39,393 bases of DNA from Aquificota bacterium (lineage in GTDB: Bacteria; Thermosulfidibacterota; Thermosulfidibacteria; Thermosulfidibacterales; B14-G1). A program made the position numbers and the translations under genes. Below, in pieces: positions 28,930-39,393 of this stretch (within the stretch, counting starts at the first letter, position 1; every line of letters starts with the position of its first letter). Under the pieces are notes generated by a model, which searched no databases, was not told the origin of the DNA, and worked only from the letters and a program-made list of their open reading frames with translations. The stretch spans positions 1 through 39,393 of the forward strand of contig WFSL01000037.1 of the NCBI GenBank assembly GCA_015486015.1. The letters run 5' to 3'.

Positions 28930-29298
28930 ATGAGCGAGGAAATCATCAGGTCCATTGAGTCCAGGTACCTGAGGGATGATCTCCCCGACTTTAAAGTGGG
29001 TGACACTGTACGTGTGTACTTCAAGATTAGAGAGGGGGACAAGGAGAGGATACAGCCCTTTGAGGGGGTAGTTATACGCTTTCAAGGGGCCATGAACAGG
29101 AGAACGTTTACTGTGAGACGCATAACCGGTGGTTTGGGGGTAGAAAGGACCTTCCCTTACCACTCTCCCAGGTTGGAGAAGATAGAGGTTCTCCGCAGGG
29201 GTAAGGTGAGGAGGGCCAAGCTCTACTATCTCAGGGAGCGTATGGGTAAGGCTGCCAGGGTGAAGGAAAGGTTCTACGCTCGTGAAAACAAGAAGTGA
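28930..29298 (+). CDS. rplS: 50S ribosomal protein L19
   Basis: L19 lies at the 30S-50S interface. [51 protein letters not shown] and [10 protein letters not shown] are all typical. There are 122 residues, with AAGGAGG before the ATG. It is the last gene of the ffh-rplS operon. The rnhB gene often found next is absent, and the accessory region begins within about 50 bp. Confidence 0.95.
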
Positions 29299-29350
29299 TT
29301 GGATGGCCGTTTCATTTTTGTAGGCATCATAGGAGTTTTTATTCGTGAGT

Positions 29351-29382
29351 GGAATTACCAAATTCAAGACCTGACCCCCAAA
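29351..29382 (-). repeat. Tail-motif copy of the composite repeat (GGTCAGGTCTTGAATTTGG)
   Basis: On the minus strand this reads GGTCAGGTCTTGAATTTGG preceded by GGG and followed by TAATTCC. The same motif recurs at 31289-31318, 34159-34193 and 36475-36507 in the same orientation. Here it supplies the stop codon and last residues of the sugar transferase. Confidence 0.75.
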
Positions 29383-30050
29383 GCTCCTTGCACAATCCTG
29401 ATCCCTCTTAGCGCCCTCCTCCATTTCCTGAGCATCTGGGGTTTTCCCCTGTCCTCCCACTTGCCCATAAAAGTGATGAGGAAGGAGAAGAGTATAAGCT
29501 GGACATCCAGGGGAAAAGACTGGTTTTCTATATAGAACAAATCATACCTCAGCTTGTGCCTGGGGGGAGTGTCGTATTTCCCATAAACCTGAGCTACCCC
29601 TGTGAGTCCAGGCTGAACCTGGAATCTCTCCATAAACCCGGGGATCTCCCTGGTGAACTCCTCCACCAGCTCCGGCCTTTCAGGCCTCGGTCCCACAAAG
29701 CTCATATCACCCTTAAAGATGCTCCAGAGCTGAGGCAGCTCGTCCATGGCCGTGGCCCTCAGGACTCTGCCCACCCTGGTCACCCGGTGATCATTCTCGG
29801 AAGCCCAGACCGCTCCAGTGCGTTTTTCCGCATCGGGGATCATGGAACGAAACTTGTAGACCTTAAAAACTCTGCCCCCTTTTCCCACCCTCTCCTGGCT
29901 GTAAAAGACAGGTCCCCCATCCTCCAGCTTTATGGCAGCAGCAATCAACAGCCACAGAGGGAGAGAAGCGATAAGACCAATGCCAGAAAAAAATATGTCA
30001 AAAATGCGCTTCAAAAGTGAAGTATGATCCAGCCCACCCATACACCCCAC
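29364..30050 (-). CDS. Undecaprenyl-phosphate sugar phosphotransferase
   Basis: This bacterial sugar transferase (WbaP/PssY C-terminal domain family) starts a repeat-unit polysaccharide by loading a sugar-1-phosphate onto undecaprenyl phosphate. One N-terminal transmembrane or re-entrant helix (about residues 17-40) is followed by KVYKFRSM, RVGRVLRATAMDELPQLW, FVGPRPERPE and QVQPGLTGVAQV, the catalytic block of the family. There are 228 residues. The extreme C-terminus (GVRS and the stop) is encoded by a repeat copy, so the original end was probably different. It may be the surviving member of an exopolysaccharide locus, with wrecked pieces at 35 kb. Confidence 0.9.
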   Translation of the reverse strand: MGCMGGLDHTSLLKRIFDIFFSGIGLIASLPLWLLIAAAIKLEDGGPVFYSQERVGKGGRVFKVYKFRSMIPDAEKRTGAVWASENDHRVTRVGRVLRATAMDELPQLWSIFKGDMSFVGPRPERPELVEEFTREIPGFMERFQVQPGLTGVAQVYGKYDTPPRHKLRYDLFYIENQSFPLDVQLILFSFLITFMGKWEDRGKPQMLRKWRRALRGIRIVQGALGVRS

Positions 30051-30136
30051 CCACTAAAGAGACCAGAAGTTTGTAAAAGTATAGTCAAAAGTACTGAAGA
30101 AGTAAAGCAACCTACTTTCTCCAGGTTTTTCCTGGC

Positions 30137-30360
30137 ATCTGGTCTATTTGGTCTATCTGGTCGGCATGGGTGAGAAAGGGTTTATACCGTTTATTGGGTT
30201 TGTTGGGTTGAGGCAGGAAAGGCGAGAAATGCGGGAAATGCGAGACAGGCAGGGAAAGCCTCATTTCGCTAACTCCACTGATTTTAGTGATTTCTAATTT
30301 CACACTCAACGCCTATGCCTTCAATCCCTTAATCCTTACTCCTTACTCCTTAATCCTACC
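30137..30360 (+). repeat. Composite repeat copy R1
   Basis: A 9-bp array (GGTCTATTT, GGTCTATCT, GGTCGGCAT) at about 30137-30170 is followed by a TTTGTTGGGTT stretch, then GCGAGAAAT/GCGGGAAAT units to about 30255. A T-rich block of repeated CCTTAATCC/CCTTACT words runs at 30318-30360. No hairpin CCACCTACGAAGTGG is visible in this copy. It is located between the sugar transferase and the first toxin gene. Confidence 0.7.
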
Positions 30361-30491
30361 AATCAGTTCAAGATGGTGCTGGGCGGCTACGGTGAGGGAG
30401 AGATTCCGCTCTGCATACTGCCTGCCCCCTTCTGCCCGTCTCATCCCTCTTTTCCATTTGTAAAAAGGGTGTCTTTGACATCTTTTAGCAC
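30361..30491 (-). other. Gap after mazF with a possible gene remnant
   Basis: The stretch 30051-30491 has no confident gene. On the minus strand an unassigned 33-codon frame (30444 to 30343, beginning MRRAEGGRQYAERN) runs into the T-rich repeat block of R1. It has no ribosome-binding site that I would trust and no recognised family. It may be the tail of a lost gene. Confidence 0.2.
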
Positions 30492-30845
30492 TTAAGCAAA
30501 CTCTAAAACCAGCTTAACCGCCTCTTCCACCTGGGCCATAACTTCCCTCTCCAACGTCCCGATTCGTTCAACAAACCTCCCCTTGGATATGGTGAGCAAC
30601 TGCTCGGCTTTTACATAAGATCTCCTCTTCAATCCATTCCTGGGCGAGGGTTCCACAGGCACGTGAAAGGGAACGGGCTTACCTCTGGTGCTTACTGCAA
30701 CCACTATCGTATTGGGATATCTGGGGTTAGAGCTGGCAGCATCCGTTTGAACGACCAAGGCAGGCCTGAGCCCCTGCTGCTCTGATCCTCTTCCAGGGGA
30801 CCAATCAACCCACCAGATCTCTCCCCGCCGAACATCCCTGCTCAT
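30492..30845 (-). CDS. MazF/PemK-family endoribonuclease toxin
   Basis: This 117-residue toxin of the MazF/PemK family cuts mRNA at short sequence motifs. RRGEIWWVDWSPGRGSEQQGLRPALVVQ is the family N-terminus (arginine and glutamine of the active site loop). VPFHVPVEPS and SYVKAEQLLTISKGRFVERIGTL form the remaining core. The ATG overlaps the antitoxin stop (ATGA), giving the usual antitoxin-first coupling. A truncated second homologue lies at 37345-37410. Intact and probably functional. Confidence 0.88.
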   Translation of the reverse strand: MSRDVRRGEIWWVDWSPGRGSEQQGLRPALVVQTDAASSNPRYPNTIVVAVSTRGKPVPFHVPVEPSPRNGLKRRSYVKAEQLLTISKGRFVERIGTLEREVMAQVEEAVKLVLEFA

Positions 30846-31081
30846 TCCCCAAGCACCACACGTCTCTGAGCCTCAAAGGCATACTTCACATCCACCTCTT
30901 CTGCATCATCAGCCACCAGAGAGAAGCAGTCAAACAACCTTTTTCTTCTCTCTTCCTTCAACTTTTCCTCCAAAAGCTCACGCATGTAGCAGGAGAAGCT
31001 TTTCCCTTTCTCCTTGGCCATTTCTTTCGCCCCTTGGTATATCTCTGGAGGGAGACGGAGAGTTAAAGCCACCTTCTTCAT
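30842..31081 (-). CDS. Ribbon-helix-helix antitoxin of the MazF module
   Basis: This roughly 79-residue antitoxin has an N-terminal ribbon-helix-helix DNA-binding domain (VALTLRLPPEIYQGAKEMAKEKGKS, then SCYMRELLEEKLKEE) and a C-terminal toxin-binding tail. It should neutralise the MazF product and repress the operon. ATG 31081 is preferred over an in-frame GTG at 31096, since GGTGGG precedes it. The promoter/operator lies at 31111-31151. Confidence 0.82.
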   Translation of the reverse strand: MKKVALTLRLPPEIYQGAKEMAKEKGKSFSCYMRELLEEKLKEERRKRLFDCFSLVADDAEEVDVKYAFEAQRRVVLGE

Positions 31082-31110
31082 CTGCACCCACCTCACGATT
31101 CATTTTCTAG

Positions 31111-31151
31111 TGTCCTTAGAATATACCATAAACTGATACCTATCAAGGACA
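31111..31151 (-). promoter_or_regulatory. Promoter flanked by inverted repeat, mazEF module 1
   Basis: The half-sites TGTCCTT (31111-31117) and AAGGACA (31145-31151) flank a promoter reading TTGATA (31141-31146), 15-bp spacer, TATATT (31120-31125) on the minus strand. A smaller GATA-CC-TATC palindrome lies inside. This arrangement suits autorepression by the ribbon-helix-helix antitoxin. Confidence 0.45.
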
Positions 31152-31159
31152 TTAAAAGT

Positions 31160-31318
31160 TCTGGTCTATTTTGTCGGGCTGGGCGAGGCAGGCGGGAAAA
31201 GCGCGCAATGCGACCTACGAAGTGGAATAGTAGAAAATAGGGTGCTGGTTTTGAGGGGGTGGCAGGTTCCTTATAAAGGGGCAGGGGAAATTACCAAATT
31301 CAAAATCCGACCCCCAGG
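31160..31318 (+). repeat. Composite repeat copy R2 (with full tail)
   Basis: A short GGTCTATTT piece is followed by GGCGAGGCAGGCGGGAAAA, GCGCGCAATGC, a hairpin unit (31212-31225) and a long tail ending in the tail motif (31289-31318). Positions 31194-31318 match 36383-36507 with about seven differences in 125 by eye. The copy ends 12 bp from the stop codon of the PIN toxin at 31331. Confidence 0.85.
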
Positions 31319-31330
31319 GTATGCCCTCCC

Positions 31331-31732
31331 TCAAGGCACAAGGGAAAAACCCAATACTTCAAAGTCCCTGTCGTACCCGAAAACCCTGTCAATGCCCATC
31401 TGCCTCATTACAGCAAAGCTTGTGCAATCGGTGTAGCTGAAGCGGTGGTCATCATACCTTACAAAGATCTCCCATGCCCTTCTCCTAAGGTTCCTGTCCA
31501 CCTCTACCAGATCAACCACTGAGCTTTTTAGTAACGATTCTCCCAAAATCACAGCCTCCCCATGCCCCACCCTCATCCTCACAATGGTCACCGTCTCATC
31601 GAATACATAATCTGTGGTGACCAGGGGAATCCTCTCTTTCCTCAAATACTCAGCCACTTCCCTGGCCGTCTGGTGATTCTGATCCCTCCTATCGTACAGA
31701 GCAAGCCAGGCACTGGTATCCACAAAGATCAC
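31331..31732 (-). CDS. PIN-domain toxin (VapC family)
   Basis: This 133-residue PIN ribonuclease has the acidic active-site residues in FVDTSAWLALYD (D5), DYVFDETVT (E near 46), SYTDCTSFAVM (D near 102) and FGYDRDFEVLG. Most VapC toxins cleave tRNA or rRNA. The gene overlaps its antitoxin by 4 bp. Its stop lies 12 bp from a repeat copy. It appears complete. Confidence 0.88.
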   Translation of the reverse strand: MIFVDTSAWLALYDRRDQNHQTAREVAEYLRKERIPLVTTDYVFDETVTIVRMRVGHGEAVILGESLLKSSVVDLVEVDRNLRRRAWEIFVRYDDHRFSYTDCTSFAVMRQMGIDRVFGYDRDFEVLGFSLVP

Positions 31733-31974
31733 TTCCCTTCCACCTTGTAAAGGTAGTAATCATGCCTCGATGAGAGATCTCCCCAGGTGCTCTCTGCTTT
31801 GCCAATTAAGCTCCACACCGGATCCTTATCCCAATCCACCCTCTTCTTACGTTCCAGGTATTCCATCACGGCCACCCGCACCACCTCGGCCATACTGACC
31901 CCTTCCTTCTCTGCCTCCTCTTTCACCTTTTGGAGAAGCTCCTCAGGAAAATAAAGCTGAGTCCTTTTGGACAT
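31729..31974 (-). CDS. Ribbon-helix-helix antitoxin of the PIN module
   Basis: About 81 residues. The N-terminal RHH domain (QLYFPEELLQKVKEEAEKEG, then SMAEVVRVAVMEYLERKK) resembles CopG/VapB regulators, and the C-terminal tail (WSLIGKAESTWGDLSSRHDYYLY) is typical of PIN-toxin partners. The start ATG 31974 has GGAGG five bases before; the ATG at 31986 overlaps that ribosome-binding site. A palindromic operator lies just upstream. Confidence 0.85.
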   Translation of the reverse strand: MSKRTQLYFPEELLQKVKEEAEKEGVSMAEVVRVAVMEYLERKKRVDWDKDPVWSLIGKAESTWGDLSSRHDYYLYKVEGK

Positions 31975-31990
31975 TTTCACCTCCATTAGC

Positions 31991-32030
31991 TGTATACAGT
32001 ATACATATACATCATACCCTGATCTGTCAA
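31991..32030 (-). promoter_or_regulatory. Promoter and palindromic operator of the PIN module
   Basis: TGTATAC A GTATACA (31991-32005) is a perfect 7-bp inverted repeat, with another ATATAC half-site next to it. TTGACA on the minus strand (32025-32030) is the -35; the -10 would be within the TATA-rich operator. Repressor binding would block the promoter directly, as expected for RHH antitoxin autoregulation. Confidence 0.65.
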
Positions 32031-32290
32031 CCTATTTGGTCTATTTGGTCTGTTTGGTTGATCTATGTGAGAAAGGCGAAACAAGCGCGAAAAGCAAGAC
32101 AAGCGAGAAAAGTGGGAAAGCGAGAAAGGTGGTAAGGCGGGAAAAGCGCGCAATGCCACCTACGAAGCGGGATAATAGAACATGGGCGAGAAATGCGAGA
32201 CACGCGGGAAAAGCGAGATTAACTTTACCCCTTCAATCCTTAATCCTCTAATCCTTACCCCTACATACACCACCGACTAAGTGGCTCAAA
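32031..32290 (+). repeat. Composite repeat copy R3
   Basis: The array GGTCTATTT/GGTCTGTTT (32031-32065) passes into AAGCGAGAA-like 9-mers (to about 32150), GCGCGCAATGC, a hairpin unit CCACCTACGAAGCGG (32156-32170) and a second round of GCGAGAAAT units. A T-rich tail (TTCAATCCTTAATCC, 32225-32265) and a decayed hairpin near 32276 follow. The 32291-32345 remainder holds diverged GCGCTCC-type repeat sequence. No gene is seen in 31987-32345. Confidence 0.8.
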
Positions 32291-32345
32291 AGCGCTCCAA
32301 TACTGGCTTTAACACCGCGCCTGCGAAGCAGAACAGGTATGGGCC

Positions 32346-32700
32346 TCAGATCTCCTTTAACCCCACTGCTATTTTTAAAGCCTCGTCCAATCTCAACATC
32401 GTATCTTCGGGCAGTACACCGAGTTTCCCAAGGACCTTCTTTTGTCTATAGCCCTTATCTGAAGGAGTAGAACTTTAGATTTCCGGGTTAATCCAGCTTC
32501 AGGGGGTTTTATCAAAACCTCAAAGGGGTAAACCCTATCCGTTTTTTAGTAGTTAGAGCGGCCACGATCACCACAGGGCTATACTTATTTATGATATCTG
32601 GAGAGATTACCACAGCCGGTCTTTTACCAGCCTGCTCAGATCCTTCCACAGGATCCAGCCGAACCCACACAACGTCCCCTCTACCTCTTCTTCCAGGGGA
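32346..32700 (-). pseudogene. Frameshifted MazF-family toxin
   Basis: Three frames together spell a MazF toxin. The N-terminal part is [20 protein letters not shown], then PAVVISPDI to VAALTTKK. A middle part follows after a shift near 32530 ([20 protein letters not shown], then VLLLQIRAIDKRR). A final part comes after a second shift near 32430 (LGKLGVLPEDTMLRLDEAL to the stop at 32346). No good start codon remains at the antitoxin junction. The toxin is therefore almost certainly inactive, unless sequencing errors explain both shifts. Confidence 0.82.
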
Positions 32701-32921
32701 TGAAACTCCTTCTCCACCTCCATATAAACCTCGGCCATCTCCTGGCACCCCTCCAGGATTTCCTTCCTGAGCCTCTCCCTTTCTTTTTCCTCAATCCACC
32801 TTGAAACAAGCTCAGTGATCACCCTACTCCTCTCCCTCTTAGGTACAATCTCCTCAAATCGCCTCCATAAAGGCTCGGTAAGGGAATACGTTCTCTTTAT
32901 AACCTTAACCCTATTTCCCAT
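32607..32921 (-). CDS. Ribbon-helix-helix antitoxin of the decayed MazF module
   Basis: The first 80 or so residues ([20 protein letters not shown], then [16 protein letters not shown], ending EFHPLEEEV) look like an RHH antitoxin of the MazE-like type paired with MazF. ATG 32921 follows AGGAGTAGAGGGC. Such proteins normally stop where mazF begins; here the frame runs on 24 residues inside the toxin region, so the end has probably been altered. TTGATC upstream and two CTGAAAG direct repeats (near 32945-32970) may be control elements. Confidence 0.65.
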
Positions 32922-32980
32922 GCCCTCTACTCCTACAAAACAATACTTTCAGGAAAACCTTTCAGATCAACTTGTGCACG

Positions 32981-33164
32981 GTCCATCTGGCTTATTTGGT
33001 CGGTCTGGTCTATCTAGTCTATCTGGTTTCTTTGGTCTATCTGGTCCGTTTAGTCTATTGGGTTGTTGCGTTGATTGGGTTTGTTGGGTTGGGCGGGAAA
33101 AGCGAGAAAAGCAAGAGCAAGACTATTAGGAAAAGCGGAAAGCCCAGTGCCACCTGAGAAGTGG
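32981..33164 (+). repeat. Composite repeat copy R4 (longest 9-bp array)
   Basis: About sixteen consecutive 9-bp units are readable from 32981: GGTCCATCT, GGCTTATTT, GGTCGGTCT, GGTCTATCT, AGTCTATCT, GGTTTCTTT, GGTCTATCT, GGTCCGTTT and so on. They change through GTTTGTTGG to GAAAAGCGA units without losing the 9-bp phase. A variant hairpin CCACCTGAGAAGTGG (33150-33164) follows. It lies between an antitoxin start and the next toxin's end. Confidence 0.82.
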
Positions 33165-33189
33165 GATAACAGAACTTGCAGGAAGTGAA

Positions 33190-33666
33190 TCACTCACTGC
33201 CCACCGATCCCAATTTCCCCCAGGATTCAGGCCCTGCCACCTCAACCAAACCTCTAAACTTCCTAAAATCCTTCAAATTCTCAGTGCAGAGGATGCCCAA
33301 TCCATTCTCAAGGAGCGTAGCTACCAGCACCACGTCCCAGAACCTTATCCCAGTTATTCCCCTTGAGGTAGAAAGCTCCACCGCCCTTTTAACGATACCA
33401 GGAGTCACAACCAAAACATCAAACAAGCCAGATCCAAGAAGGGAGCCTATCTCCTCTCCGGCCTCTTTAGGATTCAAAGGAGCACATAAACCACCTACCG
33501 ACCGGGTAATAGACACATAGAACTCCCCCAGTACTTGGGTAGAAATGAAGGCCTTGAGTTTGCCTCTTTTTACACCACCAATAAGAGCCAGGGCTTCCGC
33601 ATGAAACCTACGGGTTGTATCGATGCAGGTAACCAAAACATTGGCATCCAGGAAAACCTCAGTCAT
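33190..33666 (-). CDS. PIN-domain toxin (VapC family)
   Basis: This 158-residue PIN ribonuclease has EVFLDANVLV (first aspartate), STQVLGEFYVS (glutamate) and GIRFWDVVLVATLLENG (third aspartate), then LCTENLKDF. It overlaps its antitoxin by 8 bp. Complete in length for the family. Confidence 0.87.
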   Translation of the reverse strand: MTEVFLDANVLVTCIDTTRRFHAEALALIGGVKRGKLKAFISTQVLGEFYVSITRSVGGLCAPLNPKEAGEEIGSLLGSGLFDVLVVTPGIVKRAVELSTSRGITGIRFWDVVLVATLLENGLGILCTENLKDFRKFRGLVEVAGPESWGKLGSVGSE

Positions 33667-33898
33667 ACAGATCCTGGCGGCTGAAATCCTTCACCCCAAT
33701 AGCCCTGGGCTTGGGCCACTCCTCCTTGGCTCTTTCCTTTAGAATGGAAGCCTTCACCAGAGATTTCCTAATAAGATCGGTAACAGTAGTTCCCCTCTTC
33801 TCAGCCTCTTCCATCAAAGCCTTCTTTTCCTCCACGGGGATCCTTATTGTGAGTGTCGTTTTAGGCTCTTTTATTCTTGACCTGGCCCGGGTTTTCAT
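33659..33898 (-). CDS. Ribbon-helix-helix antitoxin of the PIN module
   Basis: This roughly 79-residue antitoxin has a basic N-terminus and an RHH core (TTLTIRIPVEEKKALMEEA, TVTDLIRKSLVKAS). Its C-terminal tail (PKPRAIGVKDFSRQDLYD) suits toxin binding. ATG 33898 has GGAGG five bases upstream. A palindrome at 33919-33932 covers a TATATT -10. Confidence 0.82.
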   Translation of the reverse strand: MKTRARSRIKEPKTTLTIRIPVEEKKALMEEAEKRGTTVTDLIRKSLVKASILKERAKEEWPKPRAIGVKDFSRQDLYD

Positions 33899-33918
33899 AA
33901 ACACCTCCCTGTTTTTGC

Positions 33919-33932
33919 ACTATCAATATAGT
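33919..33932 (-). promoter_or_regulatory. Palindromic operator candidate
   Basis: ACTAT N4 ATAGT is an inverted repeat 21 bp upstream of the antitoxin ATG. On the minus strand it contains TATATT, a likely -10; the -35 is weak. Antitoxin-mediated repression is the simplest reading. Confidence 0.4.
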
Positions 33933-34032
33933 TCAAAATGTCGTCTAAATCTACCCCCCTCTCATGTGATCCACTTACCCAAACCTTATCTCCCACCTGA
34001 AACTGGTTTTGAGTCTGTTGCGTTTATAGCGT

Positions 34033-34193
34033 CATTTACACCACCTACGAAGTGGTGTAAAGGCGCTCCAGTGCTGGGTTTGTTCTACCTACGAGGTGGA
34101 ATAGGTGGGCATTGGGGGGTGTTGGTGGGTTTTGAGGAGGTGGCAGATTCCCTCAAAAGGGGAAATTACCAAATTCAAGATCTGACCCCCAAG
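34033..34193 (+). repeat. Composite repeat copy R5 with double hairpin and tail
   Basis: A 10-bp stem TTTACACCAC (34035-34044) / GTGGTGTAAA (34052-34061) is followed by AAGGCGCTCCAGTGCTGG and a second hairpin unit (34085-34099). A diverged GGTGG-rich middle and the tail motif (34159-34193) follow. The copy ends 54 bp from the stop of the next PIN toxin. Most of 33905-34247 is repeat; no other gene is seen there. Confidence 0.85.
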
Positions 34194-34247
34194 GAGAAAA
34201 CCCGCTTTCCCTTCCTCCACAAGCTCTGAAACGCCTGTCTTGCTCCC

Positions 34248-34634
34248 TTACCAGATGACCTTCACTGAGTATCGGGCGATCCGCGGATCGGCAGTTAGGA
34301 TTGGAAAGTTTTCCAATTGAGCCTGAACGATGAGCAAACGGTCAAAGGGATCTCGATGGTGATCCGGAAGATTGTAAACATGCAGGGCATGGCTCATCTG
34401 GATAGGCAAGCTCTCAATGGCGTTGAGGGCCATCTGCTCGGGAATAAAGCGCTCAGGAGCATCGGGCAACTGTAATCTACCAAGCTTGGCCTTAATCGCT
34501 ATCTCCCAACCGCTGGCAGCGCTGAGGAACAGCTCATTCTCCCCATCACTGATGATCTCGCGAACTTTCCTGGACAGCCGGGGATCGCCGGTAATCCACC
34601 ACAGGAATGTATGGGTATCTAATAGAGCCCTCAT
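34248..34634 (-). CDS. PIN-domain toxin (VapC family, Phd-linked type)
   Basis: This 128-residue PIN ribonuclease of the subtype that pairs with Phd/YefM antitoxins has ALLDTHTFLWWITGD (D5), SGWEIAIKAKLGRL, HHRDPFDRLLIVQAQ (acidic site) and FPILTADPRIARY. The ATG overlaps the antitoxin stop by 4 bp. It looks complete. Confidence 0.9.
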   Translation of the reverse strand: MRALLDTHTFLWWITGDPRLSRKVREIISDGENELFLSAASGWEIAIKAKLGRLQLPDAPERFIPEQMALNAIESLPIQMSHALHVYNLPDHHRDPFDRLLIVQAQLENFPILTADPRIARYSVKVIW

Positions 34635-34867
34635 CCCTCGAATTCCCTGAGAATGGCTTCAGGCAGCGGCGCATCGAAATCAGGGGCGATGGTCACTTTC
34701 CCTTTCGCGCTTCCGGGAAGACGCCGCGCCGGCCGCTCCACCACCGGGACCAGCCTGGCGATGGGCTTACCGGCCTTGGCGATGATGACCTCCTCCCCCT
34801 CTTTCACCCGCGCTAAGAGCTTGGAGAAGTGGGTCTTCGCCTCGTGAATGTTCACCTGCACTGGCAT
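34631..34867 (-). CDS. Phd/YefM-family antitoxin
   Basis: This 78-residue antitoxin has the Phd/YefM fold: VQVNIHEAKTHFSKLLARVK, GEEVIIAKAGKPIARLVP and a flexible C-terminus (FDAPLPEAILREFEG) that binds the toxin. ATG 34867 has GGAGG eight bases upstream; an earlier in-frame ATG adds five residues. It sits under a consensus promoter with two operator palindromes. Confidence 0.9.
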   Translation of the reverse strand: MPVQVNIHEAKTHFSKLLARVKEGEEVIIAKAGKPIARLVPVVERPARRLPGSAKGKVTIAPDFDAPLPEAILREFEG

Positions 34868-34897
34868 TGTATTCACCTCCATCTACTGCCACTTTTC

Positions 34898-34926
34898 ATT
34901 ATAGACTAAGTCACGGACTAAGTCAA
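34898..34926 (-). promoter_or_regulatory. Consensus promoter with double Phd-type operator
   Basis: On the minus strand TTGACT (34921-34926), a 17-bp spacer and TATAAT (34898-34903) form a near-perfect sigma70 promoter. Two copies of the palindrome GACT-A-AGTC (34904-34912 and 34916-34924), 12 bp apart, fill the spacer. Two adjacent palindromes are the known pattern for Phd-type antitoxin repression. Confidence 0.7.
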
Positions 34927-34971
34927 ATTAGCCCCTCCGGCTCTCCTTCCCCGCTGCTTCTTAGCGCTCAT

Positions 34972-35445
34972 TCATAGTAAATAAATGTTCTTATATTTGC
35001 CTTGGATGTCCTTGGTGGCATTCCGCGTATCGAAGATCAGCTTCGCATGCTTGGCGATAAAGTCTCAGTTGTAGTTAGAATGATCTGTAAGGACAAGCAC
35101 ACAATCCTGTACAGTCAGTAACCCCTCGTTCAACTCTTGAGACCGCCATTCTTGGTTCAGATATTCCAACCGCGGCACATAAGAATCATTATAAGCCACT
35201 CCTGCACCTTTCTGCAGGAGTAGCCCGATGATGTCCAGCGCCGGCGATTCACGGATATCGTTAACATCGCGTTTATAAGCCACGCCCAGAATTAGGATCT
35301 TAGCGCCCTTGAGCGGCTTACCCTGTTGATTTAGAAGGTCAGCTACTCGCTCCACCACATAAGCAGGCATCTGGCTGTTGACCTTGCCTGCAAGCTCGAT
35401 AAAGCTGGTATCGGCCTGATAAGTCTTGGCCTTCTGGTCTCCATG
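34972..35445 (-). pseudogene. Nucleotide-sugar 6-dehydrogenase, C-terminal remnant
   Basis: Only the C-terminal third of a UDP-sugar 6-dehydrogenase (WbpA/WecC-like) is present. It reads KAKTYQADTSFIELAGKVNS, PAYVVERVADLLNQQGKPLK and ILILGVAYKRDVNDIRESP. A TGA at 35065-35067 interrupts the frame, which then continues as DFIAKHAKLIFDTRNATKDI to a stop at 34972. The catalytic N-terminal domains are missing, and the 5' end is joined to a deacetylase fragment. It is inactive. Confidence 0.85.
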
Positions 35446-35600
35446 AGTCTCTCTATCCTTTTCAAGCTCCCATACCTTTTATTCACCGAAACCGAGGCGG
35501 GCATGAGGCTGGAGTCGTACTGGTAACCCACCTCCTTTATGATCTCCACAGCCCAGGGGGTGATGGAAAAGCTGGGCGCCCTATAACTCCACTCCACTCC
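35440..35600 (-). pseudogene. Polysaccharide deacetylase fragment
   Basis: About 50 codons (EWSYRAPSFSITPWAVEIIK, EVGYQYDSSLMPASV, KRYGSLKRIERL) match the NodB-type deacetylases of exopolysaccharide loci, where RAPSFSI is a hallmark. Both ends are lost: the 5' side meets the YgiT gene region and the 3' side fuses, out of frame, to the dehydrogenase remnant near 35440. Confidence 0.78.
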
Positions 35601-35623
35601 GTAAGCGGAAAAGAGGCCACAAC

Positions 35624-35866
35624 TCAGGATCCCACTCCAGTTGCAGACGCATACCGGAGAACCTCTAACTCTGAGCCGCTCCGAATGGACGCATCGGCCC
35701 TTTTCAGAAGTTCATCGGTCACTTCGTCCGATAGGTAGTACTCCCCGCAGTTCTCACAAACCTCGGCTGGAACCCCTTTGAAAATCACAGTAGCATCTCC
35801 CCTGGTAAGGGTAACTGTCACCCAACCAGGCTTCGTTTCCCCCTGCTTGCAGATAACGCATTTCAT
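35624..35866 (-). CDS. YgiT-type zinc-finger antitoxin
   Basis: This 80-residue protein has two C-x2-C pairs (CVICKQGETKPG and VCENCGEYYL) forming the YgiT/MqsA-like zinc domain, and YYLSDEVTDELLKRAD typical of the family. It follows the DUF4258 gene with a 4-bp overlap. The C-terminus (ATGVGS) lies at the junction with decayed polysaccharide sequence and may not be original. The helix-turn-helix half of MqsA is absent, as in most YgiT-type partners. Confidence 0.82.
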   Translation of the reverse strand: MKCVICKQGETKPGWVTVTLTRGDATVIFKGVPAEVCENCGEYYLSDEVTDELLKRADASIRSGSELEVLRYASATGVGS

Positions 35867-36150
35867 AACTCCCTCCTCTTCCTAAAACCGTCCTCCCATA
35901 AATCCGGATCCGGTGAGTATACCGTAACCACAATGCAAAGCCTGCTTTCGCTCTCAACAGCCACCACTACATGAAGAGGCTCATTGTCGACCCAGCCCAA
36001 CATCAAAAAACTGGGATATGGCTTATCCTCCAAATATTCTGCAATTACCTCACCTACCAGCACGACTCTTACAACATCACCTCCCACAATACCCCTCTCA
36101 AACACCCTTCTTATAGCGTGAGAACTAAACCTAATCTCTTTACAATCCAT
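35863..36150 (-). CDS. DUF4258 protein, probable RNase-type toxin
   Basis: This 95-residue DUF4258 protein has IRFSSHAIRRVFERGI (the SxHAxxRxxxR pattern), then GEVIAEYLEDKPYPSFLMLG, VDNEPLHVVVAV and a final VVTVYSPDPDLWEDGFRKR. DUF4258 genes followed by YgiT-type zinc fingers form presumed toxin-antitoxin pairs related in fold to MqsR/RelE-like toxins. The order, toxin first, is opposite to the other modules here and like mqsRA. Function is inferred. Confidence 0.8.
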   Translation of the reverse strand: MDCKEIRFSSHAIRRVFERGIVGGDVVRVVLVGEVIAEYLEDKPYPSFLMLGWVDNEPLHVVVAVESESRLCIVVTVYSPDPDLWEDGFRKRREL

Positions 36151-36233
36151 TTAACTTATCCACCCTGCAAAGCCCAGGTCTTCGTTATTTAACCAGGCTT
36201 CTTCGCCACTTTCTGACCAATTTGTTAGGATAC

Positions 36234-36507
36234 TTCACCTACAAAGTAGTGTAAAGGAACTCGTACACTATAATAACAGGCTAATTGTGCCAAATACACC
36301 TATCGAACTAAAAACAGGGATAGGTGATTTATTGCATCTATCTGGTTGATCTGGTTAAAACAGGCGAGAAAGGTGGTAAGGTGGGAAAAGCGCGCAATAC
36401 CACCTACGAAGTGGGATAGTAGAAAATAGGGTGCTGGTTTTGAGGGGGTGGCAGGTTCCTTATAAAGGGGCAGGGGAAATTACCAAATTCAAGACCTGAC
36501 CCCCAAG
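36234..36507 (+). repeat. Composite repeat copy R6 (with full tail)
   Basis: A decayed hairpin (36234-36256) is followed by a short TATCTGGTTGATCTGGTT array (36336-36355), GCGAGAAAG units, GCGCGCAATAC, a perfect hairpin unit (36400-36414) and the long tail with the tail motif (36475-36507). Positions 36383-36507 are nearly identical to 31194-31318. The stretch 36151-36595 contains no gene that I can support. Confidence 0.85.
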
Positions 36508-36595
36508 GCATTTACACCTCCAGTAAAGTGAGCCAAAGTCTGGATCGGTTTCTTATAGACATTTTCGTGTGCAGTAACCCAAAACTCTTCAGAGA

Positions 36596-37027
36596 TTATC
36601 CCCCCTGAAGAACCTCCTGGGGGGATATAACCCTAAGGTCCCTGAAGTACTCGCGATAAAACCCTCTATCCCTCGTCAGCAGACAGTCACACTGCACCAG
36701 TGCATGTCCACCTATCAGAAAATCGGCCGCTATCCGCCTCTTCCCCTGCCCCCGTCCCCTCTCGAGGTACTCAGCCCAACATTTAGCGGCCATCAAGGCT
36801 GCCTCACGGCTTATCGCCAAAAACTGGATCCCCATCCGCTCCAACGTGTTAACAAGAACATCCTGAACCCCAGCATAGGCCACCGACACCTCAGCCCATA
36901 CAACCTCGCAAGCCACCACCACTCCCTCACGCAAGCTCCTTTTCAAGGCTTCCTTGGACATGAGCCCGTAAACCGGATCTGGCTCAAGGATGTCTATTAA
37001 TACGTTTGTATCAACGGCGGTAATCAC
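36596..37027 (-). CDS. PIN-domain toxin (VapC family, AbrB-linked)
   Basis: This 143-residue PIN ribonuclease has TAVDTNVLIDILEPD (D5), CEVVWAEVSVAYAG (glutamate), GKRRIAADFLIGGHALVQ (aspartate) and LLTRDRGFYREYF. This type commonly pairs with AbrB/MazE-fold antitoxins, as here. The GTG start at 37027 follows the antitoxin stop directly. Complete. Confidence 0.89.
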   Translation of the reverse strand: MITAVDTNVLIDILEPDPVYGLMSKEALKRSLREGVVVACEVVWAEVSVAYAGVQDVLVNTLERMGIQFLAISREAALMAAKCWAEYLERGRGQGKRRIAADFLIGGHALVQCDCLLTRDRGFYREYFRDLRVISPQEVLQGG

Positions 37028-37246
37028 CTATCCTTCCCTGAGCTCCCTCAGGATATCATCCGTACGCCTCCTGCGGCCAAACTTTCCATAAGCCTGATCT
37101 ACAGGATCCATATTATCCACCTTCACCGCTATCAGCCGCCCCCCTTCCTCTACAAACTCCAGAACCGTTCCAGGACGGATACCCAACCGATCCCGCAGTG
37201 CCTTGGGTATGGTAACCTGCCCCCGTTCAGCCACTTTTACTCTCAT
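37028..37246 (-). CDS. AbrB/SpoVT-type antitoxin
   Basis: This 72-residue antitoxin has the swapped-hairpin AbrB domain VAERGQVTIPKALRDRLGIR, PGTVLEFVEEGGRLIAVK. Its C-terminal tail (DQAYGKFGRRRRTDDILREL) contacts the toxin. ATG 37246 has AAGGAGG six bases upstream; the longer frame upstream has no family similarity. A promoter with a palindrome lies at 37266-37294. Confidence 0.9.
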   Translation of the reverse strand: MRVKVAERGQVTIPKALRDRLGIRPGTVLEFVEEGGRLIAVKVDNMDPVDQAYGKFGRRRRTDDILRELREG

Positions 37247-37265
37247 GACAACCTCCTTGGTATGT

Positions 37266-37294
37266 ATTCTGAAGCATGAATTCATACCTGTCAA
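37266..37294 (-). promoter_or_regulatory. Promoter and palindrome of the AbrB-PIN module
   Basis: On the minus strand TTGACA (37289-37294), a 17-bp spacer and CAGAAT (37266-37271) form a promoter. The spacer holds the perfect palindrome ATGAATTCAT (37276-37285), and GGTATG/CATACC half-sites lie to either side. It suits antitoxin autoregulation. Confidence 0.5.
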
Positions 37295-37344
37295 GATTGC
37301 ATACAAACATCCTCCAACTTGATGGCATTGGCTATGAGCAACCG

Positions 37345-37410
37345 CTCTAACCCCCTTCCTGGAAACCGGTCAACCTGCCAGATTTCACCTCGCTGCACGC
37401 TCCCGGTCAT
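37345..37410 (-). pseudogene. MazF N-terminal remnant
   Basis: A start codon at 37410 opens MTGSVQRGEIWQVDRFPGRG, which matches the N-terminus of the intact MazF at 30845 (RRGEIWWVDWSPGRG). After about 22 codons the similarity ends and the frame runs into the promoter region of the AbrB-PIN module. The rest of the toxin and its antitoxin are gone. Confidence 0.7.
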
Positions 37411-37478
37411 TCCTATGGAATAGGAAGAGACTCACTGCCACTGTTCCCCTACTTCCACTCACCCATTTTACCGGTTAA

Positions 37479-37618
37479 CTATTTGGTCCATTTGGTCTAT
37501 CTGGTCTTTCTGGTCCGTCTTGTCTATCTGGTCGATATGGGCGAGAAAAGCACACAGTTCCACCTACGAAGTGGTTCAAAGGCGCTCCAGTTCTGAGTTT
37601 GAACCACCTACGAAGTGG
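37479..37618 (+). repeat. Composite repeat copy R7 with double hairpin
   Basis: The 9-bp array (GGTCCATTT, GGTCTATCT, GGTCTTTCT, GGTCCGTCT, TGTCTATCT, 37486-37535) is followed by GGGCGAGAAAAGC, hairpin units at 37560-37574 and 37604-37618, and between them AAAGGCGCTCCAGTTCTG. No long tail follows. It separates the MazF remnant from hepT. Confidence 0.83.
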
Positions 37619-37702
37619 AATTTAGCTTGGGTAAATCTCAAAAACCCGGAACAACCTAAGGTCAATATGGGAAACTGCCAAATCCAATGGTAAACTCCAG
37701 GG

Positions 37703-38176
37703 TTACTCATCACCCTGTGATGCATCTCTGCTACGCGTATAGTCAGCAGGTAAGCCAAGGAAGCAGCCGACCTCCTTAAGGAATCGATCGAGATCCGAAA
37801 GGTTCTCTCGTAGGATCCGATGGACCTCCTCATCATCTGCTTCCCAGTAAAGGTGGACCAGGCGATTACGGAACTTTGCCATACGAATGAGCTGGGGGAG
37901 GAAATCGGAGGAGAAAGCCCCAGCTTCTCTTAAAACGCGAAATGTGTCGGCATAGTCTTCCGGTGCCCGAAAGCGGTTCTTGCTTATAAGGTGATGACAA
38001 AGATCGATTGCTGCCTCGATGGCTACGATGAAGTGATATTTGGCACTACCGACCTTGTGAGGATCCTGAAGGAATTCCTTTCGTGGGAGAGCTTGCAGTT
38101 CAGCGAGTCGAGCACGAGCCTTGAGAATCTCCGAGATAAAGCGGCGGACCCGTTCCTCATCGTACGCCACTGCCAA
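37703..38176 (-). CDS. hepT: HepT-like RNase toxin
   Basis: This roughly 157-residue, four-helix HEPN protein has the catalytic R-x4-H-x-Y motif RNRLVHLY near residue 114 and the typical YHFIVAIEAAIDLCHHLI helix. HepT is an RNase held in check when its MNT partner polyAMPylates the tyrosine of this motif. The TTG at 38176, with GGAGG about nine bases upstream, is the likely start, since the open frame further upstream lies inside the mnt gene and has no similarity. It overlaps the MNT gene by 20 bp. Confidence 0.87.
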   Translation of the reverse strand: MAVAYDEERVRRFISEILKARARLAELQALPRKEFLQDPHKVGSAKYHFIVAIEAAIDLCHHLISKNRFRAPEDYADTFRVLREAGAFSSDFLPQLIRMAKFRNRLVHLYWEADDEEVHRILRENLSDLDRFLKEVGCFLGLPADYTRSRDASQGDE

Positions 38177-38639
38177 GGCCCAACACCTCCATAAGATAAG
38201 CTTGCTGAAAGGGCGCAAAGTCAAAGTATTGAGAAAAGGCCCGTGTCTCAAAATCAACTCTGAGGGTCTCCTCCCGAGAGAAAAGCAACAGCCCTTCTCG
38301 GATCACCCTATAGCGAAAGGCAAGAGGCGCTCGGTTGAGAAGTCGAACATCCACCGGAAGGAGGTATCCGGCTTCTTCGAGGACTTGCTCCAACTCCACC
38401 TCCAACCTAAGTTCATAGCTCAAACTCGAGGTTCCCTCTGCGCTCGAATAGACAGCGAGATCAACGTCGTGAAAGGGCCCACCGGTGAGGAACGAACCAT
38501 GCACATAAGCGAAGGCTAAGGTACTCTCCTGAAGCAGCCTCTCCCGCAAGGCTGTGAGAACAGCCTCTTGCTCCTCAGGCCCAAAAGGTAAATGGAGCTT
38601 CCGCTCTTCCAGATCGTGCTTATGCTTATAGGTTCGCAT
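38157..38639 (-). CDS. mntA: MNT-type nucleotidyltransferase antitoxin
   Basis: This 160-residue minimal nucleotidyltransferase is partner of HepT. The active-site motif is GSFLTGGPFHDVDLAVY, with aspartates binding metal and ATP; the spacer between GS and DVD is 8 residues, shorter than the 10 of many MNT proteins but a known variant. Family members transfer AMP from ATP to the toxin. A small palindrome AACTT-ATA-AAGTT (38655-38667) lies 16 bp upstream of the start. Confidence 0.87.
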   Translation of the reverse strand: MRTYKHKHDLEERKLHLPFGPEEQEAVLTALRERLLQESTLAFAYVHGSFLTGGPFHDVDLAVYSSAEGTSSLSYELRLEVELEQVLEEAGYLLPVDVRLLNRAPLAFRYRVIREGLLLFSREETLRVDFETRAFSQYFDFAPFQQAYLMEVLGLGSGVR

Positions 38640-38811
38640 AAAAATACCATAGTCAACTTATAAAGTTTATGCAAGATTTCCCCGGCATTGTGCCAGACTT
38701 AAACGATTAAACCGGAATCATCTGTCTATCTGCCCACGAAAAATCCCACGTATACCTCAGTGCGGAACAACGCAGAAAATTGACTCCACTATCTCCCCTC
38801 ATTTCTTTCAT

Positions 38812-38875
38812 TTACACCACCTACGAAGTGGTGCAAAGGCGCTCCAGCGCTGGGTTTGGACCACCTACGAAGTGG
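38812..38875 (+). repeat. Composite repeat copy R8 (double hairpin only)
   Basis: TTTACACCAC/GTGGTGCAAA encloses the first hairpin unit (38817-38831). AGGCGCTCCAGCGCTGGGTT, itself able to pair, follows, then a second unit (38861-38875). It resembles 34033-34099 closely. Its right end lies 14 bp from the premature stop of the truncated PIN gene. Upstream, 38640-38811 holds no gene. Confidence 0.85.
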
Positions 38876-38888
38876 AACTGAGGGCTTT

Positions 38889-38954
38889 TCACTCTTCGGA
38901 TCTCTCCTGATCTAATAACCTCTCCAGCCAAACATTTGTGTCAACCAAATACAC
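38889..38954 (-). pseudogene. PIN-domain toxin cut off after 21 codons
   Basis: GTG 38954 starts (V)YLVDTNVWLERLLDQERSEE, the N-terminal strand of a PIN toxin with its first aspartate (VDTN). A TGA at 38889-38891 ends it and repeat copy R8 begins 14 bp further on; no later PIN motif follows. It starts one base after the DUF2281 antitoxin stop, as expected for a toxin-antitoxin pair. Confidence 0.78.
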
Positions 38955-38955
38955 C

Positions 38956-39165
38956 TCAATCGCCTCGCCATTCCAGTGCCTTCTTCTGTAATTCAAGTGA
39001 GGAATATCGAGCCTTATATTTGCTCAAAGCCCCAGCCCAATCCTGACGCATTATATATCCCTCTTTTTTCTTCCTTCTCTCTAAGAGAAAGCGAGCAAAA
39101 TCTTCCACTTCTCGCTGAAGTTCAGGAGGCAACTGTTCAATAAGTTCTTTCAAGGCAGCCACCAT
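38956..39165 (-). CDS. DUF2281-type antitoxin
   Basis: This 69-residue protein of the DUF2281/VapB-like type reads ALKELIEQLPPELQREVEDF, ARFLLERRKKK, with a C-terminal tail (QDWAGALSKYKARYSSLELQ) of the sort found before PIN toxins. GGGGG lies just before ATG 39165. Its toxin partner is truncated, so the antitoxin is orphaned. Confidence 0.8.
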   Translation of the reverse strand: MVAALKELIEQLPPELQREVEDFARFLLERRKKKEGYIMRQDWAGALSKYKARYSSLELQKKALEWRGD

Positions 39166-39228
39166 AACCCCCTTACGCTTTCTATGCTATTTCACAATAA
39201 CATAAAGCCACGGTAATGGGCAAAGGAC

Positions 39229-39354
39229 ATCTGGTCGGTCGGGTAAATCTGGGCGAGAAATGCAAGACGCGCGAGAAAAGCGAGATTAACTTCACCCCTT
39301 CAATCCTTAATCCTCTATTCCCCTACCTCTTTACATATGCCACCTACAAAGTGG
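39229..39354 (+). repeat. Composite repeat copy R9
   Basis: A short TCTGGTCGG array passes into GGGCGAGAAAT and GCGAGAAAA units. The second tail type (AGATTAACTTCACCCC, TTCAATCCTTAATCC, 39282-39320) and a hairpin variant CCACCTACAAAGTGG (39340-39354) follow. Its tail matches 32214-32245 closely. The window ends 39 bp later with nothing recognisable. Confidence 0.8.
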
Positions 39355-39393
39355 AATAGAATCGGCAAGGTTCTCATCTATCCAGTAAACGAT

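Follow-up and report, generated by a model that had tools for sequence, protein, structure and literature searches.

The intergenic regions of a toxin-antitoxin (TA) and polysaccharide island in an Aquificota bacterium contain tandem arrays of a degenerate 9-bp unit. On a balance of evidence that tips modestly in this direction, we regard these arrays as a family of intergenic short tandem repeats, which are altered by tandem duplication and by conversion of whole arrays and which are carried along with TA modules. We infer that slippage and recombination are their cause and that they lack a specific function. This reading is supported by the periodicity of the arrays, their confinement to the island, a junction that is common to several copies, differences in the number and type of units at orthologous sites and, in two genera, the association with the same TA-like gene. 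The window, by which we mean the whole analyzed stretch of 39,393 nucleotides, constitutes the entire contig C37 of a 1.62-Mb genome consisting of 43 contigs (G000), whose order was searched as a set of nine genomes (G000-G008).

In the copy at 32980-33115, the lag-9 match amounts to 0.589 (over 32981-33140), compared to a mean of 0.272 (sd 0.036, maximum 0.39) in 5000 dinucleotide-preserving shuffles, none of which attained the observed value. Each part of the copy is periodic on its own, as illustrated by a lag-9 match of 0.63 versus 0.31 for the A block and p values of 0.011 and 0.006 for the B and C blocks, respectively. Tandem Repeats Finder assigns periods of 9, 18 and 36 to this copy, with the top score obtained for 36, and the two longer periods are a sign of duplications spanning two to four units at once. 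Among the lags tested in the whole window, stretches with more than 60% match are confined to lag 9 and its multiple 18. The 9-bp periodicity described in the original prediction is thus confirmed. Three distinct types of units, A (TGGTYTRTY), B (GSGTTTRTT) and C (GCGAGAAAA), are joined in the arrays, and the copy at 32980-33115 is composed of nine A units, about four B units (GTTTGTTGG) and two to three C units (GAAAAGCGA). The transition between units, which had been perceived as gradual, did not prove to be so, as the three types are separate and some copies pass from A to C directly. A relation of the C block to an inverted A block was rejected, with 4.05 of 9 expected matches not being significant (p 0.67).

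The genome contains about 15 arrays, which are located on C37 (29-39 kb), at the start of contig C2 and, in one case, on C43. The A-type pattern has 24 matches in G000, which share one strand and are restricted to C37 (30-38 kb), C2 (1-13 kb) and C43 (7 kb). For the C-type pattern, 15 matches were obtained, again on one strand and restricted to C37 and C2, and a reversed control gave none. All further copies that had been claimed for the window (at 30137, 32031, 36336, 37479 and 39229) are present, and one more was found at 31163 (Table 1). On the G-rich strand, the units follow the order A-C in many copies and A-B-C in some. An A-to-C junction of TGGTCGACATGGGCGAGAAAAGC-like form is common to several of them, and a composite element therefore describes the array better than a gradual drift. 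In G000 and its congener G001, the A-to-C phase equals 3 in 7 of 11 copies, 6 in the copy at 32980-33115 and 5, 5 and 7 in the rest, an agreement with a chance of about 4 in 10,000 if phases were uniform and copies independent, although they probably share a common ancestor. Inside the copy at 30137, the C units also shift register. The 9-bp register is consequently retained in the majority of copies rather than in every one.

Table 1. Repeat arrays and array blocks in the window.
Feature	Position	Strand	Remarks
Array with A, B and C units	30137..30258	+	Upstream of sugar transferase gene 29364-30050(-)
Short array, one A then C units	31163..31205	+	Upstream of antitoxin-like gene 30842-31096(-)
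Array, three to four units of type A, then about ten of type C	32031..32150	+	Upstream of RHH/PIN pair 31331-31986(-); ortholog in G001
A block of the copy at 32980-33115	32980..33060	+	Nine TGGTYTRTY units, GGTCTATCT in the frame of the original prediction
B block of the same copy	33061..33092	+	GGTTTGTTG-like units
C block of the same copy	33093..33123	+	GCGGGAAAA GCGAGAAAA GCAAGAGCA
Short array, A then C units	36336..36395	+	
Array, six to seven A then one C unit	37479..37556	+	Followed by palindrome CCACCTACGAAGTGG at 37560
Short array, A then C units	39229..39286	+	Upstream of antitoxin-like gene; array upstream of that gene also in genus g2 (G002)

Nearly all arrays of G000 are found between co-directional TA and polysaccharide genes. 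Between 30.5 and 38.6 kb, the window encodes PemK/MazF, four PIN proteins, antitoxins of the RHH, Phd and MazE types, a HepT-nucleotidyltransferase pair and a DUF4258 protein. This island has its TA and sugar genes on the minus strand, and its left border is formed by a bacterial sugar transferase. Along the coding strand, the usual order comprises the 3' end of one gene, often a palindrome (CCACTTCGTAGGTGG), the C units, the B units if there are any, the A units and the upstream region of the next gene. Two short reading frames at 35065-35597 resemble pieces of a nucleotide-sugar dehydrogenase and a polysaccharide deacetylase and are probably decayed genes. Contig C2 carries on with TA genes and, judged by sequence, apparent nucleotide-sugar genes, and the arrays on C37 and C2 may belong to one island that is split over two contigs, although the longest stretch common to the contig ends is a 14-mer that is itself a repeat. 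A contig with a sugar transferase gene in G002 also contains arrays, together with two stretches homologous to TA genes of the window (with 86% and 73% identity) in rearranged order. Gene positions outside the window were assigned by a simple codon-usage caller, and single orientations are thus less certain than the overall pattern. The previously suggested recombination hotspot fits the place of the arrays in this variable island and is plausible. No support was obtained for a meaning of the period as three codons, since the arrays are intergenic and the wobble position T4 (in the frame GGT-YTR-TYT) is nearly fixed; an array runs into a gene in frame only in relatives.

Arrays of the same kind were identified in G001-G005, those of related genera adjoining the same sorts of genes, and none were found in G006-G008. 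Their comparison at orthologous sites reveals that the number of units changes at one site and that the type of a whole array differs at another. Upstream of the RHH/PIN pair, three A units are found in both G000 and G001 whereas the C part is unequal in length, and differences within units are located at free positions. At coaE, an array of about 10 units in G002 compares to one of 18 in G004, which includes runs of identical units. In both genomes, the array enters the gene in frame and the predicted protein starts within the repeat as MNQTNQ (L124:9564-9672 and L126:160-338), illustrating that arrays can extend a protein. A second pair of orthologous arrays in the same two genomes (on C50 and C168, respectively) has eight units each. 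At another orthologous intergenic site, C6 of G002 and C132 of G003 have about 12 units each, but the array of one species is A-type and that of its congener is B-type (GCGTTTATA). Both genera g1 and g2 carry an array upstream of one and the same antitoxin-like gene. For the copy at 30137, the spacer did not yield a convincing alignment with the sugar-transferase contig of G001, where a short B-like stretch stands alone.

As a family of passive repeats, the arrays would lengthen or shorten by gain or loss of one or several units through slipped-strand mispairing or unequal recombination, and a whole array could be converted from one unit type to another. Copies with the common A-to-C junction would descend from one composite element, which probably spread over the island through recombination and through joint transfer with TA modules. 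Even if the repeats are passive, they mark a variable island of the genome and could serve as strain markers. Among the processes initially proposed, a slippage-like one is supported by the multi-unit periods and by the unit numbers differing at orthologous sites. If slippage were simple and local, the units of one array should resemble each other more than they resemble those of other arrays. This likeness is 0.665 in G000, compared to 0.697 after permutation (z -2.0), and the corresponding z values are -3.7 in Nitrospira and 0.6 in G005, whereas the expected likeness is found in G317 (z 5.2) and, weakly, in G001 and G232. The results from G000 and Nitrospira thus count against pure local slippage. 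Where the likeness is absent, either old arrays have become saturated at their free positions, units are exchanged between arrays, or a constraint or generator is at work. Two further observations run counter to passive repeats, namely the orientation of the arrays of the island, which is the same in every case, and the occurrence of the same unit with the same free positions in unrelated phyla, which passive local expansion does not explain.

The unit common to different phyla is the new element described here. A-type matches were found in 17 of 386 genomes of a broad sample, some of them in coding sequence, and in 19 of 198 sampled Nitrospirota genomes, with up to 184 matches in one. In several phyla, T1, G3, T4 and T8 of the unit are near-fixed whereas positions 5, 7 and 9 are free, a likeness of unit profiles that is partly built in, as the genomes were picked by motif. 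We therefore also considered a scan that is free of the motif except for a GT anchor, on one 91.5-kb Nitrospirota contig, whose genome had been selected for its many matches. On this contig, lag 9 gave 18 regions, compared to 10 for lag 7 and to 2-3 for most lags, two of which are runs of N. A laxer lag-9 scan yielded 26 regions, among them 23 of A-type, with one of these overlapping a run of N, and another that consists of C-like units (TTTTCTCGC), implying that the sharing of the unit is not solely an effect of the search. In Nitrospira sp. RSF6, a G-rich run is followed by a C-rich run, with all 25 of 25 pairs in that order, and the tracts lie between genes irrespective of how these are oriented, in many cases no more than about ten bases from a stop codon. 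The complementarity of the arms of a pair (0.78) does not exceed that between arms of different pairs (0.793±0.013), indicating that the hairpin itself is not maintained. With this and the unstructured sense strand, a hairpin or structured RNA was rejected, and a search of 29000-39393 with the Rfam 15 covariance models was negative at E values of up to 0.5.

The presence of the A unit in other phyla leaves room for a templated or selected origin. Although we think it unlikely, all these phyla might draw on one intergenic vocabulary of 9-bp units, with the A type in this order, Nitrospirota, Aerophobetes and others and a C-like stretch in the Nitrospirota contig, where each unit would be an independent draw from a degenerate consensus and not copied from the unit next to it. 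This would call for a dedicated generator or a conserved binder, such as an enzyme adding degenerate units off a template or a widespread sequence-specific protein. If the unit reflects a real constraint or generator, a sizeable class of intergenic DNA from Nitrospira and further uncultured bacteria would share one cause, which is undescribed as far as our searches reach: text searches of the open-access literature found no description, with the unit strings matching 18 papers of seemingly unrelated titles, most of them by a single match, and the heptamer and C-type strings matching none.

We consider it doubtful that the arrays act as Rho-utilization (rut) insulators, which would stop read-through between TA and polysaccharide genes and which a NusG-like antiterminator could override. 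A rut site has been defined by an excess of C over G, a lack of structure, a length of 70-80 nt and regularly spaced C (PMC6407284). Sense strands of the arrays have far more C than G and fold worse than shuffles in most cases tested. Read in the direction of transcription, their RNA would be C-rich, G-poor and unstructured with a pair of C every 9 nt, which in the longer arrays extends over at least 70-80 nt and overall resembles rut sites in a range of 70-150 nt. With the exception of the one on C43, the arrays of G000 have their C-rich strand as the sense strand of the flanking genes, and the genome encodes a full-length Rho. In G001, a NusG-like protein with a KOW motif (L123:1480-1986) adjoins arrays and is possibly a specialized antiterminator of polysaccharide operons. 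However, the spacing of 9 nt differs from the 11-13 nt in rut sites (PMC6407284), and the same orientation inside one island may be inherited. Several arrays of relatives also deviate from it: at a minimum of three tandem sites in G005, the sense strand immediately behind the stop codon is the G-rich one, and the symmetric pairs of Nitrospira have the G-rich run ahead of the C-rich one on either strand, regardless of how the genes around the gap are oriented. Both observations weaken a Rho insulator as general explanation.

Similarly doubtful, in our view, are arrays that would serve as sites for a sequence-specific DNA- or RNA-binding protein reading each 9-bp unit, a role which the original prediction had also mentioned. 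The pattern of near-fixed and free positions in several phyla, the behavior of units as independent draws from one consensus and the placement of the differences between the G000 and G001 orthologs would all be expected of such sites. Conversely, congeners have different unit types at an orthologous site, the number of units varies, the fixed positions are, the motif-free scan aside, partly built in by the search pattern, and no candidate protein is known.

The remaining explanations carry little weight. It is very improbable that the arrays are recombination sites of an integron-like mobile cassette system gathering TA modules. The co-directional small TA genes with repeats of one orientation between them and the TA-like gene that shares its array between two genera would be consistent with such cassettes, but no integrase was found over the cut-off in the nine genomes, where only XerC/D-like matches were obtained. 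Neither is there a common core at a fixed array boundary nor are there foldable attC-like sites, the arrays being unstructured, and their lengths and unit types vary freely. An integron cassette array was rejected for the lack of the integrase and of the common core. We give still less credence to remnants of coding repeats, which, depending on the strand, would encode a hydrophobic run with a basic tail (G-rich strand) or MNQTNQ (opposite strand). The G-rich frame indeed reads GLF/GLS or VYL followed by EKREKR, coaE of G002 and G004 begins inside an array and locus L143 encodes a real GLFGLFGLS tail, but the arrays of the window sit between genes on the opposite strand and the wobble positions are among the most fixed of the unit, for which reasons a coding repeat was rejected for the window. 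At L143 (in G198), the pattern matches lie in a sequence that would encode DWGLLGLIGLFGLFGLSRKK near a C-terminus, akin to a sorting tail, which cautions that the 9-mer can be coding elsewhere. Finally, an artefact in the assembly of this metagenome-derived genome is next to negligible. The window comprises a whole contig, and contigs are prone to end at repeats, with matches located at contig ends in G002, but the units are not identical to one another and other assemblies contain orthologous arrays between the same flanks.

With respect to known repeat systems, the arrays are nearest in kind to STRR heptamers and BOX elements while being a member of neither. The STRR heptamers of filamentous cyanobacteria are short degenerate tandem units at many intergenic sites, whose function is unknown. 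The many dispersed intergenic copies in G000 are reminiscent of these heptamers, whereas the unit described here has 9 instead of 7 bp, several types are joined in one array, the lineages are unrelated and the 7-bp arrays of G000 use other units. BOX elements of Streptococcus pneumoniae are composite and intergenic, with ordered modules and variable tandem central units (PMC3049150). The arrays described here resemble them in the order of modules, which is A-(B)-C with a common junction, and in the variable number of units. However, BOX modules (boxA-boxB(n)-boxC) are tens of bases long with a predicted fold, whereas all modules here are 9-bp arrays whose sense strand does not fold. The A-type arrays of Nitrospira and other Nitrospirota have the same A-type unit with the same free positions but are distributed genome-wide as inverted G-rich/C-rich pairs, unlike the arrays of this island, which have one orientation and C-type units on the far side.

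Several other repeats were noted. The dispersed palindrome CCACCTACGAAGTGG is found in the window at 34041, 36400, 37560, 37604, 38817 and 38861, sometimes paired 44 bp apart and often adjoining the C-end of an array, and it recurs in G001 (L122) and, in the form CACTTCGTAGGTGG, in G002 (L213). A fourth type of 9-bp unit (GTAAAATGG) is located beyond the sugar transferase gene in G001 (L232:5311-5392), and its fragment ACCCATTTTACC abuts the array at 37458 of the window. Arrays with a period of 7 bp (of CCTTAAT, GCCATGA, GTCAGAA and CTTAAAA types) reside in the same gaps (window 30317-30365; L116, L117, L212, L213; L237-L241), with the GCCATGA type occurring at many contig ends in G002. Finally, a repeat GGGGTCAGGTCTTGAATTTGG, which resembles those linked to REP-associated transposases, adjoins arrays at about 34160-34195 and 36480-36510 of the window, at about 1891-1915 of L113 and in L160, and it appears as CCTGACCCC beside an array in Aerophobetes.
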